This document shows positions 48,922 through 54,197 of a stretch of DNA of 54,210 bases, one piece after another. Made by a program: the position numbers and the translations under genes. Numbering within the stretch: position 1 is the stretch's first letter; each line of letters opens with the position of its first letter. Source of the DNA: Rhodospirillales bacterium (GTDB lineage Bacteria; Pseudomonadota; Alphaproteobacteria; Acetobacterales; Acetobacteraceae); contig JAGWQN010000018.1 of the NCBI GenBank assembly GCA_028869995.1, positions 1 through 54,210 on the forward strand. The letters are read 5' to 3'. A model generated the notes under the pieces. The model ran no database searches and had not been told where the DNA came from. It was given only the letters and a program-made list of their open reading frames with translations.

Positions 48922-49012
48922 AGTCTGTCAGTCTTTCGTTGAATCGGGGTGGGGTTCCGCGACGCGGGGGTGGCGTGATTCAAGATTGCTGCTGGGCAGG
49001 AGGCCAGGAGCG

Positions 49013-49955
49013 ATGGCTCGACCGCTTTCCCTTGATTTGCGTATTCGCGTTGCTGCGGCCCTTGCGGAAGGATCGAGCGTGCGGGAAGCGGCGAAGCGCT
49101 TTGGTGTGTCGGTGGCCTCGGCGGTGCGGATGGGCCAGCTTTCGCGAGCCGGCCATGGCCTGGCGGTTCGCAAGATCGGCGGCAACCGCCCGCCGATCCT
49201 TCTCAGCCTGTCCGACGCGTTCAGCGCCCGCCTCGCGGCCAAGTCGGATTGGACGGTGCGCGCCCTCGCCGCTGATCTGCGCGCTGACGGCATCGCAGTG
49301 TCTCATGACACGGTCTGGCGCTTCATGCGTCGCCAGGGCCTTACCTTCAAAAAAAACGCTGCTGGCAAGCGAGACAGAACGGCCGAGCCTGGCGCGGCTA
49401 CGGACACGCTGGCGCCGTTATCAGCACCGCCTTGATCCGGCTCGACTGGTCTTTGTCGACGAGACCTGGGTCAAGACCAACATGACCCGCACGTACGGCT
49501 GGAGCCCGCGAGGCGAACCGCTTCTGGCCAAGGTCCCGCACGGGCACTGGCAGACGCTGACGTTCCTCGCCGGGCTGCGACACGACCGCATCGTCGCACC
49601 TTGCGTCATCGACGGGCCGATCAACGCGATCTCCTTCACCGCCTGGGTCCAGCAGTTCCTCGTGCCCACACTCAAGCGAGGCGACATCGTCGTTGCCGAC
49701 AACCTCGGCAGCCACAAAGGCAAAGCGGCGCGCAACGCGATCCGCAGCGTCGGTGCCAGGCTGTTCTTCCTGCCCGCCTACAGCCCCGACCTCAATCCAA
49801 TCGAGATGGCCTTCGCCAAGCTCAAGGCGATGCTGCGCAAGGCCGATGAACGATCCGTCGAGGCAACCTGGCGAAAGCTCGGCGACCTGCTTGCCGCATT
49901 CAACGCCGACGAATGCGCCGCTTATCTTCGTCACGCAGGCTACGCTTCTATCTAA
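49013..49955 (+). CDS. IS630-family transposase in two frames (A8 frameshift site)
   Basis: The first frame runs from ATG 49013 to 49435 and encodes the helix-turn-helix part (LSLDLRIRVAAALAEGSSVREAAKRFGVS). The second frame, to 49955, encodes the DDE domain: VFVDETWVKTNM (first Asp), VVADNLGSHKG (second Asp) and YSPDLNPIEMAFAKLK (Glu). They meet at eight A residues (49349-49356). Joining needs a +1 shift (or loss of one A), by transcriptional slippage, ribosomal frameshifting or mutation. A continuous protein would be about 313 residues, typical of IS630. Confidence 0.85.
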
Positions 49956-50043
49956 CCCTGACATGGAGTAATCGGGGCGACCACTCCCCCGATGCAGGGT
50001 CGATATGATCGACCTTGGGAACATCGGCATCGGGAGAGCAGCC

Positions 50044-51078
50044 ATGGAACACTATGTCGCGCTGGACGTGTCGCTCAAGGAAATCAGTGTCTGCATTCTG
50101 GACGAGAAGGGAGGTTTGGTCTTCGAAGGTAAGGCCGCGGCCGACCCGCCGGCCTTGGTGGATCTGATCCGATCGAAGGCGCCCGGTGTCGTTCGGGTTG
50201 GCTTAGAGACCGGCGCGACCACGCCATGGCTGTTCCACGCGCTGACGGCGGCCGGTTTGCCGGTGATCTGCATGGATGCCCGTCATGCCAATGCGGCGCT
50301 GTCGATGCGGCCGCGCAAGTCCGACCGCAGCGACGCCCGCGGCCTGGCTGACATCCTGCGGATGGGCTGGTATCGCGAGGTCAGGGCCAAAAGCATTCCC
50401 GCTCACGAGCGTCGCGCCCTGCTGGCCACCCGCCATCACCTGGTGACAATCCGCACGGAGTTGGATGCGCAGCTGCGGGGTCTGCTGAAGACATTTGGCC
50501 TGATTGTCGGGCCAGGCAACACCGACGTCCTGGTCCGCAAGGCCGAAGCGCTCTCGCAAGGGCTCCCGGTGATCGAGGCATTGGTATCCAGGCTCGCCGA
50601 AGTCCGTCGCCATGTTGTGCAGCAGGTGGCGGCCCTCGATCGCGATATCCGCCGTCTGGTCCGTGCCGACGGAACCTTGAAGCGCTTCCTGACCGTGCCC
50701 GGCGTCGGTCCGATCACCGCGATCGCCTTCCTGTCGACCATCGACGAGCCCAGCCGGTTCCAACACGCTCGCGATGTCGGTCCTTATCTCGGGCTGACCC
50801 CGACCCGATACCAGTCGGGAGAAACCGATCGGCAAGGCCGGATATCGAAATGCGGAGATGCCTTCACCCGTTCCTGTCTCTACGAGGCGGCGAATGTGCT
50901 GCTGACCAAGGTGCAGCGCTTCTCGCCGCTGAAGGCGTGGGGAATGAAGCTTGCGAAGCGCATCGGGGGCAAGAAGGCGCGCATCGCCGTCGCGCGCAAG
51001 ATCGCCGTCATCCTGCACTGCATCTGGACTGACGGCACCGAGTTCTGGTGGACGCGAGTAGAGGCCAAGATGGCCTGA
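50044..51078 (+). CDS. IS110-family transposase
   Basis: A 344-residue DEDD recombinase. The N-terminal RuvC-like domain has Asp in YVALDVSLKEISV, Glu in RVGLETGATTPWL, Asp in ICMDARHANAA, and RKSDRSDARGLAD. The C-terminal Tnp domain shows VPGVGPITAIAFLSTI, the dimerising helix-hairpin-helix region, and the segment CGDAFTRSCLYEAA with the catalytic Ser. The ATG at 50044 gives the usual start MEHYVALDVS. The gene looks intact. IS110 enzymes work with a bridge RNA encoded in the element's non-coding end. Confidence 0.95.
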   Translation: MEHYVALDVSLKEISVCILDEKGGLVFEGKAAADPPALVDLIRSKAPGVVRVGLETGATTPWLFHALTAAGLPVICMDARHANAALSMRPRKSDRSDARGLADILRMGWYREVRAKSIPAHERRALLATRHHLVTIRTELDAQLRGLLKTFGLIVGPGNTDVLVRKAEALSQGLPVIEALVSRLAEVRRHVVQQVAALDRDIRRLVRADGTLKRFLTVPGVGPITAIAFLSTIDEPSRFQHARDVGPYLGLTPTRYQSGETDRQGRISKCGDAFTRSCLYEAANVLLTKVQRFSPLKAWGMKLAKRIGGKKARIAVARKIAVILHCIWTDGTEFWWTRVEAKMA

Positions 51079-51502: not shown

Positions 51503-51532
51503 TTGACCGCCAGTAAGACGTATGATTTATTT
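51503..51532 (+). promoter_or_regulatory. Candidate promoter of the nickel permease gene
   Basis: TTGACC (51503-51508) is a good -35; an AT-rich -10 candidate, TTTATT (51527-51532), lies 18 bp on and overlaps the putative NikR dyad. TATGAT at 51521 is too close to serve with this -35. Confidence 0.35.
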
Positions 51533-51547
51533 TTCACACTTCATACG
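51519..51547. promoter_or_regulatory. NikR-like operator
   Basis: CGTATGA (51519-51525) and TCATACG (51541-51547) are perfect inverted half-sites separated by 15 bases. The half-site GTATGA/TCATAC is that of the E. coli nickel repressor NikR, where the spacer is 16. It lies 56 bp before the start of a nickel/cobalt permease gene and overlaps its candidate promoter, a position suited to nickel-dependent repression. No nikR gene is in the window. Confidence 0.6.
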
Positions 51548-51602: not shown

Positions 51603-52679
51603 ATGAGCCCGATGCTGACCTCCCTCCTCCACCAAACCCGCACGACCCGCGCGCGGTCGGTGGGCCTGCTCGGGACTTTGCTGGTCGCCAACGGCCTGGC
51701 CTGGGCTTGGGCTCTCGTCGCGTTTCATGATTATCCTGTCCTCATCGGTACGGCCGCCCTCGCCTACACATTTGGCCTGCGCCACGCCTTCGATGCCGAT
51801 CATATCGCAGCTATCGACAACGTCACGCGAAAACTCATGCAGGAGGGCCAGCGACCGATCTCCGCGGGCCTTTACTTCTCACTCGGCCATTCTACCATCG
51901 TCATTGCTCTCTCGATCGCGATCGCAGCTACGGCCAGCGCTCTGCAGAATCACTTTGGCACGCTCAAAAATATCGGCGCCATCGTTGGCACGAGTGTCTC
52001 TGCTCTTTTCCTTCTGACAATCGCCGCGGCAAACGTTGCTGTTCTGGTAACGATCTACCGCGCCTTCCGCAGCGTGCGCGCGGGCGGCCCCCTCGTCGAG
52101 GAAGACATCGACCTGGCACTTGCCAACCGCGGCCTCCTCGGACGCCTGTTCCGCCGCTTCTTTCATGCGGTGGAAAAGAGCTGGCACATGTATCCGCTCG
52201 GCGTTCTGTTCGGCCTCGGCTTCGACACCGCGACGGAAGTCGGCGTGCTCGGCATCTCGGCAACGCAGGCCGCTCATGGTCTGCCGGTCTGGTCGATCCT
52301 CGTCTTCCCCGCCCTGTTTACCGCCGGGATGACGCTGGTCGATACGTCCGACAGCATGTTGATGGTCGGCGCCTATCAGTGGGCCTTCATCAAGCCGATC
52401 CGCAAACTTTACTATAACCTCACCATCACCGCCGTCTCCGTACTGGTCGCTATTATCGTAGGCGGTTTCGAAGCCCTGGGCCTGATCGGCAATCAGCTGG
52501 GTCTGACGGGCCAAGGCGGGTTCTGGGGCGCGATCGGCACCATCAACAATCATTTCGGTATCCTCGGCTATCTGATCGTCGCTGCGTTCCTCGTCAGCTG
52601 GCTGATCTCCATGATCATCTACCGGATCAAGGGTTATGACACGATCAACGTCGTCGTCAGCTCGGACGGGAGCGCCTGA
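51603..52679 (+). CDS. NiCoT family nickel/cobalt permease
   Basis: A 358-residue secondary transporter (HoxN/NixA/NicT family) that takes up Ni2+ or Co2+. The signature H-x4-D-H is H61 to H67 in LRHAFDADHIAAIDNVTR of helix 2. The other family motifs are LGHSTIVIALSIAIA, LGFDTATEVGVL and FTAGMTLVDTSDSMLM. About eight helices are predicted. GGGGAA lies 8 bases before the ATG. The NikR-like operator points to nickel. Urease or hydrogenase genes are not in the window. Confidence 0.93.
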   Translation: MSPMLTSLLHQTRTTRARSVGLLGTLLVANGLAWAWALVAFHDYPVLIGTAALAYTFGLRHAFDADHIAAIDNVTRKLMQEGQRPISAGLYFSLGHSTIVIALSIAIAATASALQNHFGTLKNIGAIVGTSVSALFLLTIAAANVAVLVTIYRAFRSVRAGGPLVEEDIDLALANRGLLGRLFRRFFHAVEKSWHMYPLGVLFGLGFDTATEVGVLGISATQAAHGLPVWSILVFPALFTAGMTLVDTSDSMLMVGAYQWAFIKPIRKLYYNLTITAVSVLVAIIVGGFEALGLIGNQLGLTGQGGFWGAIGTINNHFGILGYLIVAAFLVSWLISMIIYRIKGYDTINVVVSSDGSA

Positions 52680-52886: not shown

Positions 52887-54197
52887 TTAGAGCGCGCCCA
52901 GCCGATGACGGATGCGGCTCCACACATTGCCCGGGCCGGCCCCCGCACCTTCTTCCGGTCGCTCGCCCGCACCACTCTCGCCTTCGGGCACAGGTCCTGT
53001 CATCGGATCCGTGATCCGTCGCGCGGCCTGAACCAGCCCGTCAAGGCTGTACAAATTCGTCGAGCTGCCCAATCGCGTGTTGCGCCGCTCCACCCTCTTG
53101 ATCAGTCCCGATTCCTGAAGCCCACCGATATGCTTCTGGACCGTGCGGCTGCTCACGCCGATGTCCTTGGCGAGCTTGTCGACCGTCGGGCTCGGCAACT
53201 CATCAGCACTCGTCCAGGCGTGCAGCAGATGGATGACGATATTCATGTCGATCGGATCGAGCCCCAGCTCGGCCTGCCTCTCGACGATGATATTCGGCAG
53301 CGCGCTCCAGCCGGACCGCAGCACGGGCTTCGTCCACTTCTCTTCGTTGGCCTGTCTCGTTCGCAGTGTCGCCCAGCTGGCTCCCAGTGCCAGCAGGGCG
53401 AGCATCGCCAGAAACACGATGGTCAGCACGCGATAGTGCGAGACGTTGGTCGCCGCCTCGACCACAGCGAGCTTTGTCCGCTTATCCATCAGCGTGAAAA
53501 AGCGGTCGATCGGCTCCATGATAGCGGCCTTCTCCCGCAGATAGGCCGGAGAGAACATCATGTGGATCGCGAGGTTCCGGTCCGGCGCGCCGTGGATGGT
53601 GAAGGCGCCCGTCTTGTCCGGGAAAAGACCGACCACGGCGTTCATCGCGATCGCCTCCCGCTTGGCCAGCGCGTTCGACCGATCCTCCGCCTGTTTCAGC
53701 ATCGCAAACTCGGCGCCGTCAAAGCCCGCCTTGCGGATGCGCTCTTCGAACGACTCCTGCGCGCCGTTCGGGCGCGGCTTTGGCATCCCCGCGGAAACGA
53801 AATCCCAATATATTCTATTGTATTGCTGCGGTCGCGGCATCTTGCCATCACGAATGGCAAGAATATCCTCGTATTCCTTCCTGAACTGGGGATTTCCCGT
53901 CACCACATACAATCGCGCCGTCGTCGTCAGATCGTCCGAACTGGTCCGCAGCTCGCCCGCAAGCACATAGGACTTGTAGCGGGCTTGATAGGCATGTGAC
54001 AGCTGATGCAGAGCATCCGCATAGAGAAAGAAGGATGCCAGTGTCGCCAAGACGATCAGGAGCAGCCCTTCGGCCAGAATCGTCGCGAACATGCGCGCCG
54101 AGATCCTCGCCAGCAAGCGCTCCGGAAACGTCACGACTGAAAACAAGTTAGAGAGGCTCATCGTGCTAACGCCCACCTGCCGTGGCACTCGCGCCAT
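52887..54197 (-). CDS. Membrane sensor with chemoreceptor-type domain fused to a C-terminal winged helix
   Basis: A 436-residue protein. Helix TM1 is at about 38-60. A periplasmic domain of about 195 residues follows, with ARLYVVTGNPQFRKEYEDILA, RPQQYNRIYWDFV, AEDRSNALAKREAIAMNAV and MEPIDRFFTLMDKRT; this layout is the ligand domain common in chemotaxis receptors and GGDEF proteins of alphaproteobacteria. TM2 is at about 257-275. The cytoplasmic part has a winged helix-turn-helix (about 310-386; LAKDIGVSSRTVQKHIGGLQ, then SGLIKRVERR) and an acidic Gly/Pro-rich tail. No HAMP, kinase or methylation helix is present. An ATG at 54161 is an alternative start. It is probably a one-component membrane transcription regulator. 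Confidence 0.72.
   Translation of the reverse strand: MARVPRQVGVSTMSLSNLFSVVTFPERLLARISARMFATILAEGLLLIVLATLASFFLYADALHQLSHAYQARYKSYVLAGELRTSSDDLTTTARLYVVTGNPQFRKEYEDILAIRDGKMPRPQQYNRIYWDFVSAGMPKPRPNGAQESFEERIRKAGFDGAEFAMLKQAEDRSNALAKREAIAMNAVVGLFPDKTGAFTIHGAPDRNLAIHMMFSPAYLREKAAIMEPIDRFFTLMDKRTKLAVVEAATNVSHYRVLTIVFLAMLALLALGASWATLRTRQANEEKWTKPVLRSGWSALPNIIVERQAELGLDPIDMNIVIHLLHAWTSADELPSPTVDKLAKDIGVSSRTVQKHIGGLQESGLIKRVERRNTRLGSSTNLYSLDGLVQAARRITDPMTGPVPEGESGAGERPEEGAGAGPGNVWSRIRHRLGAL

Follow-up and report, generated by a model that had tools for sequence, protein, structure and literature searches.

A chemoreceptor-type sensor joined to a DnaD-N-type winged helix: a candidate transmembrane one-component regulator in an alphaproteobacterium

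The window analysed here is an entire contig (54,210 nucleotides) of a 2.88-Mb, 77%-complete assembly of a Rhodospirillales bacterium. At its far end, the reverse strand carries a single intact frame of 436 codons (52887..54197, − strand) that is open up to the contig end. The probable start is the ATG at 54161, where the alignment with the protein of a second copy of the gene (L007) begins; this ATG is directly preceded by CAGGTGGGCGTTAGCACG and has an AGGTGG-like ribosome-binding site about 10 nt upstream. On the strength of this alignment and of CAGGTGGGCGTTAGCACG, the product is taken to be 424 amino acids long and the gene (52887..54161, − strand) to be complete inside the contig, with only 49 bases of the window upstream of the start. 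The longer N-terminus of the 54197 frame was dropped, and the start shifted to 54161, after the comparison with L007; residues are numbered throughout according to the 424-residue form.

Tail to tail with this gene lies a gene for a NicO/NiCoT nickel-cobalt permease (51603..52679, + strand; Pfam NicO, 335.8 bits; TIGR00802, 406.7 bits), and the same convergent arrangement is found in L007 (nicO at 1656-2816). Transposases (IS630, IS110 or others) accompany the fused gene and nicO in both assemblies, consistent with a mobile segment. IS630-type and IS110-type transposase genes occupy positions 48939-51078 of the window, directly upstream of nicO, and the nicO gene of L007 likewise has an IS630-type gene alongside; these names were partly recognised from the translated sequence and partly drawn from annotated IS630 matches.

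In both copies, hydropathy reveals exactly two membrane segments in the encoded protein, centred on residues 28-46 and 245-263. A short N-terminal segment (residues 1-24; 54090..54161, − strand), with 3 K/R and 1 D/E, is predicted to be cytoplasmic by the positive-inside rule and is followed by TM1 (residues 25-48; 54018..54089, − strand; Kyte-Doolittle peak 2.39), a mainly helical periplasmic sensor domain of 195 residues (residues 49-243; 53433..54017, − strand) and TM2 (residues 244-266; 53364..53432, − strand; hydropathy peak 2.36), both membrane segments being aligned to their counterparts in chemoreceptors of the MCP type. The linker RTRQANEE (residues 267-274; 53340..53363, − strand) lies in the position of HAMP and forms the fusion junction, such that only about ten residues (RTRQANEEKW) connect TM2 to the winged helix. 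This C-terminal domain (residues 275-386; 53004..53339, − strand) is assigned to the DnaD N-terminal-domain type by Pfam, profile and structure model, and contains a putative recognition helix, SRTVQKHIGGLQE (residues 338-350; 53112..53150, − strand), identified from the secondary structure in both models. In the alignment with L007, the C-terminal tail (residues 387-424; 52890..53003, − strand) consists of a variable linker and then a conserved short helix; the motif VWSRIxxRLGxL (window 52890-52928) is conserved at the C-terminus after this Pro/Gly/Glu-rich linker. The order TM1, periplasmic domain, TM2 and winged helix, proposed in an earlier note on this DNA, is borne out by hydropathy, by the MCP alignment and by Pfam.

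Residues 17-268 match the N-termini of true MCPs, from other alphaproteobacteria and from plasmids, at 41-48% identity, in agreement with the chemoreceptor-type sensor claimed in the earlier note, and the motifs quoted there prove to be the most conserved blocks of the family, i.e. LADELRQSSDDLTRLARTYVVTGD, IRNGxxPRPxxYHRIYWDF and AMNAVKG. The invariant residues of the sensor cluster in LADELRQSSDDLTR, IRNGxxPRP, YxxIYWD and the AMNAVKG block. Among the MCP relatives are L023 (47-48% identity) and proteins of Azospirillum (L041), Spartinivicinus (L042) and Ensifer (L043), and the sensor is carried by PAS/histidine-kinase proteins (L028 and L086) as well; its occurrence on both MCPs and PAS/kinase receptors indicates a module that transmits across membranes to varied outputs. 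Pfam yields no named sensor domain for the periplasmic part, the only match being CHASE3 at 13.8 bits (cut-off 28), and in the true MCPs with this sensor Pfam recognises HAMP and MCPsignal, the sensor domain itself being nameless. A profile search returned no PDB relative of the sensor family, and in the full-length structure model the sensor has a pLDDT under 50, too low for this part of the model to be used. Because the sensor is without a Pfam name even in true MCPs and without a PDB relative, it is, as judged from these searches, an MCP-type sensor that has no name, and a label such as "4HB" or "CHASE" exceeds the evidence. This family, marked by LADELRQSSDDLTR...YHRIYWDF...AMNAVKG, is nonetheless widespread in chemoreceptors and kinases (the six relatives listed above). 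Neither MCPsignal nor CheW domains were found in four genomes of the window's own genus (G000, G098, G1087 and G1088, one of them 94% complete); thus, the sensor is a borrowed part in the window's lineage, where a chemoreceptor sensor survives although chemotaxis genes were not found. The genome of L007 (G689) has both MCPsignal and CheW.

The matches to MCPs stop at residues 265-269 and those to stand-alone winged-helix proteins start at residues 266-270, and this coincidence places the junction at the border of TM2 and HAMP. Given this boundary, and given that a Pfam search up to E = 10 finds neither HAMP nor MCPsignal in the fused protein, the earlier proposal that the winged helix replaces HAMP and the signalling helices holds. 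From residues 266-270 on, the protein is 31-55% identical to soluble proteins of about 140-220 amino acids without membrane segments. Such free-standing relatives occur in at least 336 plasmid records and also on alphaproteobacterial chromosomes; the plasmid hosts include Xanthobacter (55% identity), Caulobacter, Gluconobacter and Acinetobacter, and small plasmids of Enterobacteriaceae are also among the records. Many of the plasmids with a free-standing DnaD-N-type protein (e.g. L044, L046 and L049) are tiny and cryptic, with a separate Rep. A 488-codon frame with a winged-helix match (L054) was rejected as merely a long G+C-rich open frame, its protein being short and soluble.

In Pfam, the C-terminal domain exceeds the gathering cut-offs of both HTH_36 (26.4 bits vs. 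25) and DnaD_N (27.8 bits vs. 27), and Trans_reg_C, the winged helix of the OmpR/PhoB type, is absent among the matches up to E = 10. When the PDB was searched with a seven-sequence profile, the top matches were DnaD N-terminal domains (E = 1.3e-10 for 2vn2, 1e-7 for 2v79 and 3e-7 for 8ojj), with ordinary HTH regulators trailing at 5e-4 and above. Modelled alone, the winged helix shows the succession H-H-H-H-E-E-H with a mean pLDDT of 68, and it is of moderate confidence within the full-length model; DnaD chains lead the fold comparison (Foldseek, VIA-align) with Z of 11-12 over 95-105 residues (best single score, Z 12.1 to 2v79), and the next group is near 8. The VIA-align rows after DnaD (MarR, TFE and LexA types, Z of about 7-8) were counted as generic winged-helix similarity. 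Profiles and structure model together identify the output domain as a DnaD-N-type winged helix of extended form. The C-terminal winged helix of the earlier note is thus upheld by Pfam, by the DnaD profile and by structure, and of the domain search that it had proposed, the part concerning the output succeeded (HTH_36 above cut-off) but the part concerning the sensor did not, CHASE3 remaining below cut-off and no named sensor family emerging.

The N-terminal domain of DnaD serves mainly in oligomerisation and in binding to partners, which weakens the equation of the output domain with a transcription factor and leaves DNA binding not guaranteed; we infer both DNA binding and control of transcription by the fused protein. 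Alternatively, the protein could be a membrane-tethered replication or partition factor, in which the DnaD-N module would bind DNA or a DnaA-like partner and the sensor would read an external cue or anchor a replicon. DnaD is the best structural and profile relative of the winged helix, the top relatives in PHROG are initiators of phage replication, and free-standing relatives abound on small plasmids. However, small plasmids with the free-standing protein encode a separate replication initiation protein of their own, the fused gene does not adjoin replication genes, HTH_36 is a general class, and the second, C-terminal domain of DnaD (DnaD/DnaB_2) is absent in Pfam, a tail of 38 residues alone following the winged helix; we consider a role in replication or partition quite unlikely.

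The second full-length fusion (L007) is 81% identical and comes from an unrelated assembly (contig JAKAXS010000275.1, MAG YS2.bin16), whose genome belongs to another family of the same class: a search of its family brought up a stretch (L092) that is the same as one placed in family f175 by the phylum search (L056), and G000 was not among the results. For the window's own family there is a weak hint of Acetobacteraceae, in that one member (G308) has a protein identical to one from a Gluconobacter albidus plasmid, although plasmid genes move between hosts. Between the window and L007, synonymous changes are near-saturated (dS of about 1.4) and non-synonymous changes are few in both halves. The periplasmic domain has a dN/dS of 0.061 and the linker and winged helix one of 0.037, as against 0.32-0.35 for the TM segments. 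Thus, both halves are kept joined under strong constraint in two lineages. A frameshift or misassembly, named in the earlier note as what might have produced the joined parts, is contradicted by the single open frame, by the identity of the L007 copy and by the low dN/dS in both halves. More generally, a non-functional chance fusion or an assembly artefact is barely credible: both copies lie near contig ends amid IS elements, and the L007 contig is short, with a coverage of 1.2, yet the same junction is present in two independent assemblies with diverged DNA and low dN/dS, which argues that the fusion is not due to chance. When about 85,000 species genomes were scanned by a method that detects close relatives only, L007 was the sole match, and no third fusion was found in about 1,700 genome searches on overlapping samples (own family, order, class, phylum and genus, as well as the family of L007); nor were fused homologues found on plasmids, where every record covers less than 80% of the query, or on viral contigs. 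The survey of homologues proposed earlier accordingly gave one gene with the same domain order and the same NicO neighbour, but no third fusion. The domain combination is genuine and rare.

The fused gene, its conservation, the origins of its domains and the fold class of the output are established here, and the protein is, in our judgement, probably a transmembrane one-component transcriptional regulator that arose by the fusion of genes. A chemoreceptor portion reaching from TM1 to the end of TM2 would have been linked, where HAMP would otherwise start, to a winged-helix protein of the DnaD-N type that had until then been soluble. Either a solute in the periplasm or a binding protein carrying its ligand would alter helix packing in the sensor dimer, and a piston movement or rotation of TM2 would then pass straight into the winged-helix pair, whose altered dimer geometry may change its grip on the operator with the protein still held in the membrane. 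Dimerisation, DNA binding, the direction of regulation, the ligand and the target genes are the elements of this scheme that we infer. The regulator reading is favoured by an intact ORF common to two assemblies, by purifying selection on both halves and by the HAMP-free junction at residues 266-270; against it stand the role in replication initiation of DnaD, to which the winged helix is closer than to any other protein of solved structure, and the small number of fused copies, just two; nor was a target operator found, with 49 bases of the window upstream of the start. A single polypeptide unites the sensor, a transmembrane segment and the DNA-binding fold and has no phosphotransfer domain. 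It is plausible that phosphorelay is skipped.

The transmembrane transcriptional regulators that have been studied act while anchored (PMC11856585). The engineered chimera Chi37 combines the cytoplasmic part of ChiS with both TMs and a portion of the periplasmic domain taken from the chemoreceptor Mlp37; binding of Chi37 to its promoters reaches the wild-type level, and its promoter is activated (PMC11856585). Regulated proteolysis, whereby a stimulus would free the winged helix from the membrane, is another reading: the winged helix is homologous to soluble stand-alone proteins over its full length and begins right after TM2, so that release would yield a soluble protein with no part missing. 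However, a protease or cleavage motif was not identified in this analysis, and in view of the anchored action of the regulators studied, we regard release as decidedly improbable. Unlikely, although not negligible, is a further-reaching proposal, in which this would be the first case of a DnaD-type module coupled to a sensor: the membrane receptor would pass a periplasmic signal through its two helices, without HAMP or phosphorelay, to a winged helix of the replication-initiator type, controlling either transcription through a DNA-binding fold new to membrane regulators or the replication or positioning of a replicon.

The generalisation in the earlier note that the DNA-binding domain is N-terminal in known membrane regulators applies to the ToxR family (PMC5936718) but is too broad, being contradicted by ChiS, with its DNA-binding domain (residues 1024-1129) at the extreme C-terminus (PMC8092284), by TfoS (residues 997-1114; PMC13316777) and by Cache-domain receptors with HTH or LytTR outputs (PMC4822843). 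Like the fused protein, ChiS and TfoS of Vibrio cholerae are membrane-anchored regulators with a C-terminal DNA-binding domain (PMC8092284, PMC13316777, PMC11856585). However, ChiS has HK, Rec and PAS parts ahead of a helix-sheet-helix DNA-binding domain. The DNA-binding domain of TfoS is of the AraC type. The sensor described here is absent from both proteins, as are a winged helix of the DnaD type and a linker of roughly ten residues. ToxR and CadC share with the fused protein a one-component, membrane-integrated design with a winged helix and no phosphoacceptor domain, whereas their DNA-binding domain is N-terminal, of the OmpR/PhoB type and combined with one TM, as opposed to a C-terminal, DnaD-N-type domain and two TMs. 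The Cache receptors resemble it in coupling a chemoreceptor-type extracellular sensor to a transcription-factor output (PMC4822843), but belong to another sensor family and have another DNA-binding domain.

MCPs with the same sensor (e.g. AZL_RS24765 of Azospirillum sp. B510, L041) are alike in TM1, periplasmic domain and TM2, at the 41-48% identity given above; in the fused protein, the winged helix stands in for HAMP and MCPsignal. On the output side, WP_203197165.1 of Xanthobacter dioxanivorans (L046, annotated as a "helix-turn-helix domain-containing protein") is 55% identical over 107 residues of the winged-helix module, but free-standing relatives of this kind are soluble proteins of about 140-165 amino acids without a TM or sensor. 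The N-terminal domain of DnaD (2v79, 2vn2) matches the whole module in fold and profile at 16-20% identity; unlike DnaD, the fused protein is without the DnaD C-terminal domain, is fused to a membrane part and is alphaproteobacterial. No record of a DnaD-N-type winged helix in a membrane regulator was found. What is unusual is the way in which the parts are combined: an MCP sensor that has no name is linked by ten residues, without HAMP, to a winged helix of the DnaD-N type. The uniqueness as a sensor class asserted earlier was overstated: a C-terminal DNA-binding domain has precedents among membrane one-component regulators, and the protein does not represent a new class of mechanism. It is a natural counterpart of an engineered design, a chemoreceptor sensor with a DNA-binding domain, and with a HAMP-free junction about ten residues long it offers a compact system in which to test how a chemoreceptor TM2 signal can drive a DNA-binding domain directly, as well as a possible biosensor scaffold.

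The adjacent permease had led to the suggestion in the earlier note that the protein senses a metal or solute, which the analysis does not support, since a NikR-type operator at the nicO promoter gives the control of this gene an ordinary explanation. This operator, GTATGA-N15-TCATAC (51520..51546, + strand), lies upstream of nicO with 0 mismatches and occurs nowhere else in the window at 0 or 1 mismatch; it is present in L007 at 2796-2822 with 1 mismatch. The E. coli NikR operator is GTATGA-N16-TCATAC (PMC7055735), so that the spacing at nicO is one base shorter. The genome encodes nikR, with a perfect GTATGA-N16-TCATAC just upstream (L103, 3485-3512), and neither a nickel riboswitch nor another Rfam element was found near nicO. 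The ordinary reading of these motifs is that NikR would control nicO, and with both operator and nikR present, the nickel idea for the fused protein is weakened. A nickel- or cobalt-responsive regulator of the neighbouring permease, although consistent with the convergent gene pair conserved in both assemblies, is very doubtful in the face of the NikR-type operator and of nikR behind its own perfect site; moreover, the relatives of the sensor sit in MCPs beside unrelated genes. Adjacency is the sole tie of the fused protein to nickel, and with the fused gene and nicO flanked by IS elements, co-inheritance accounts for the pairing.
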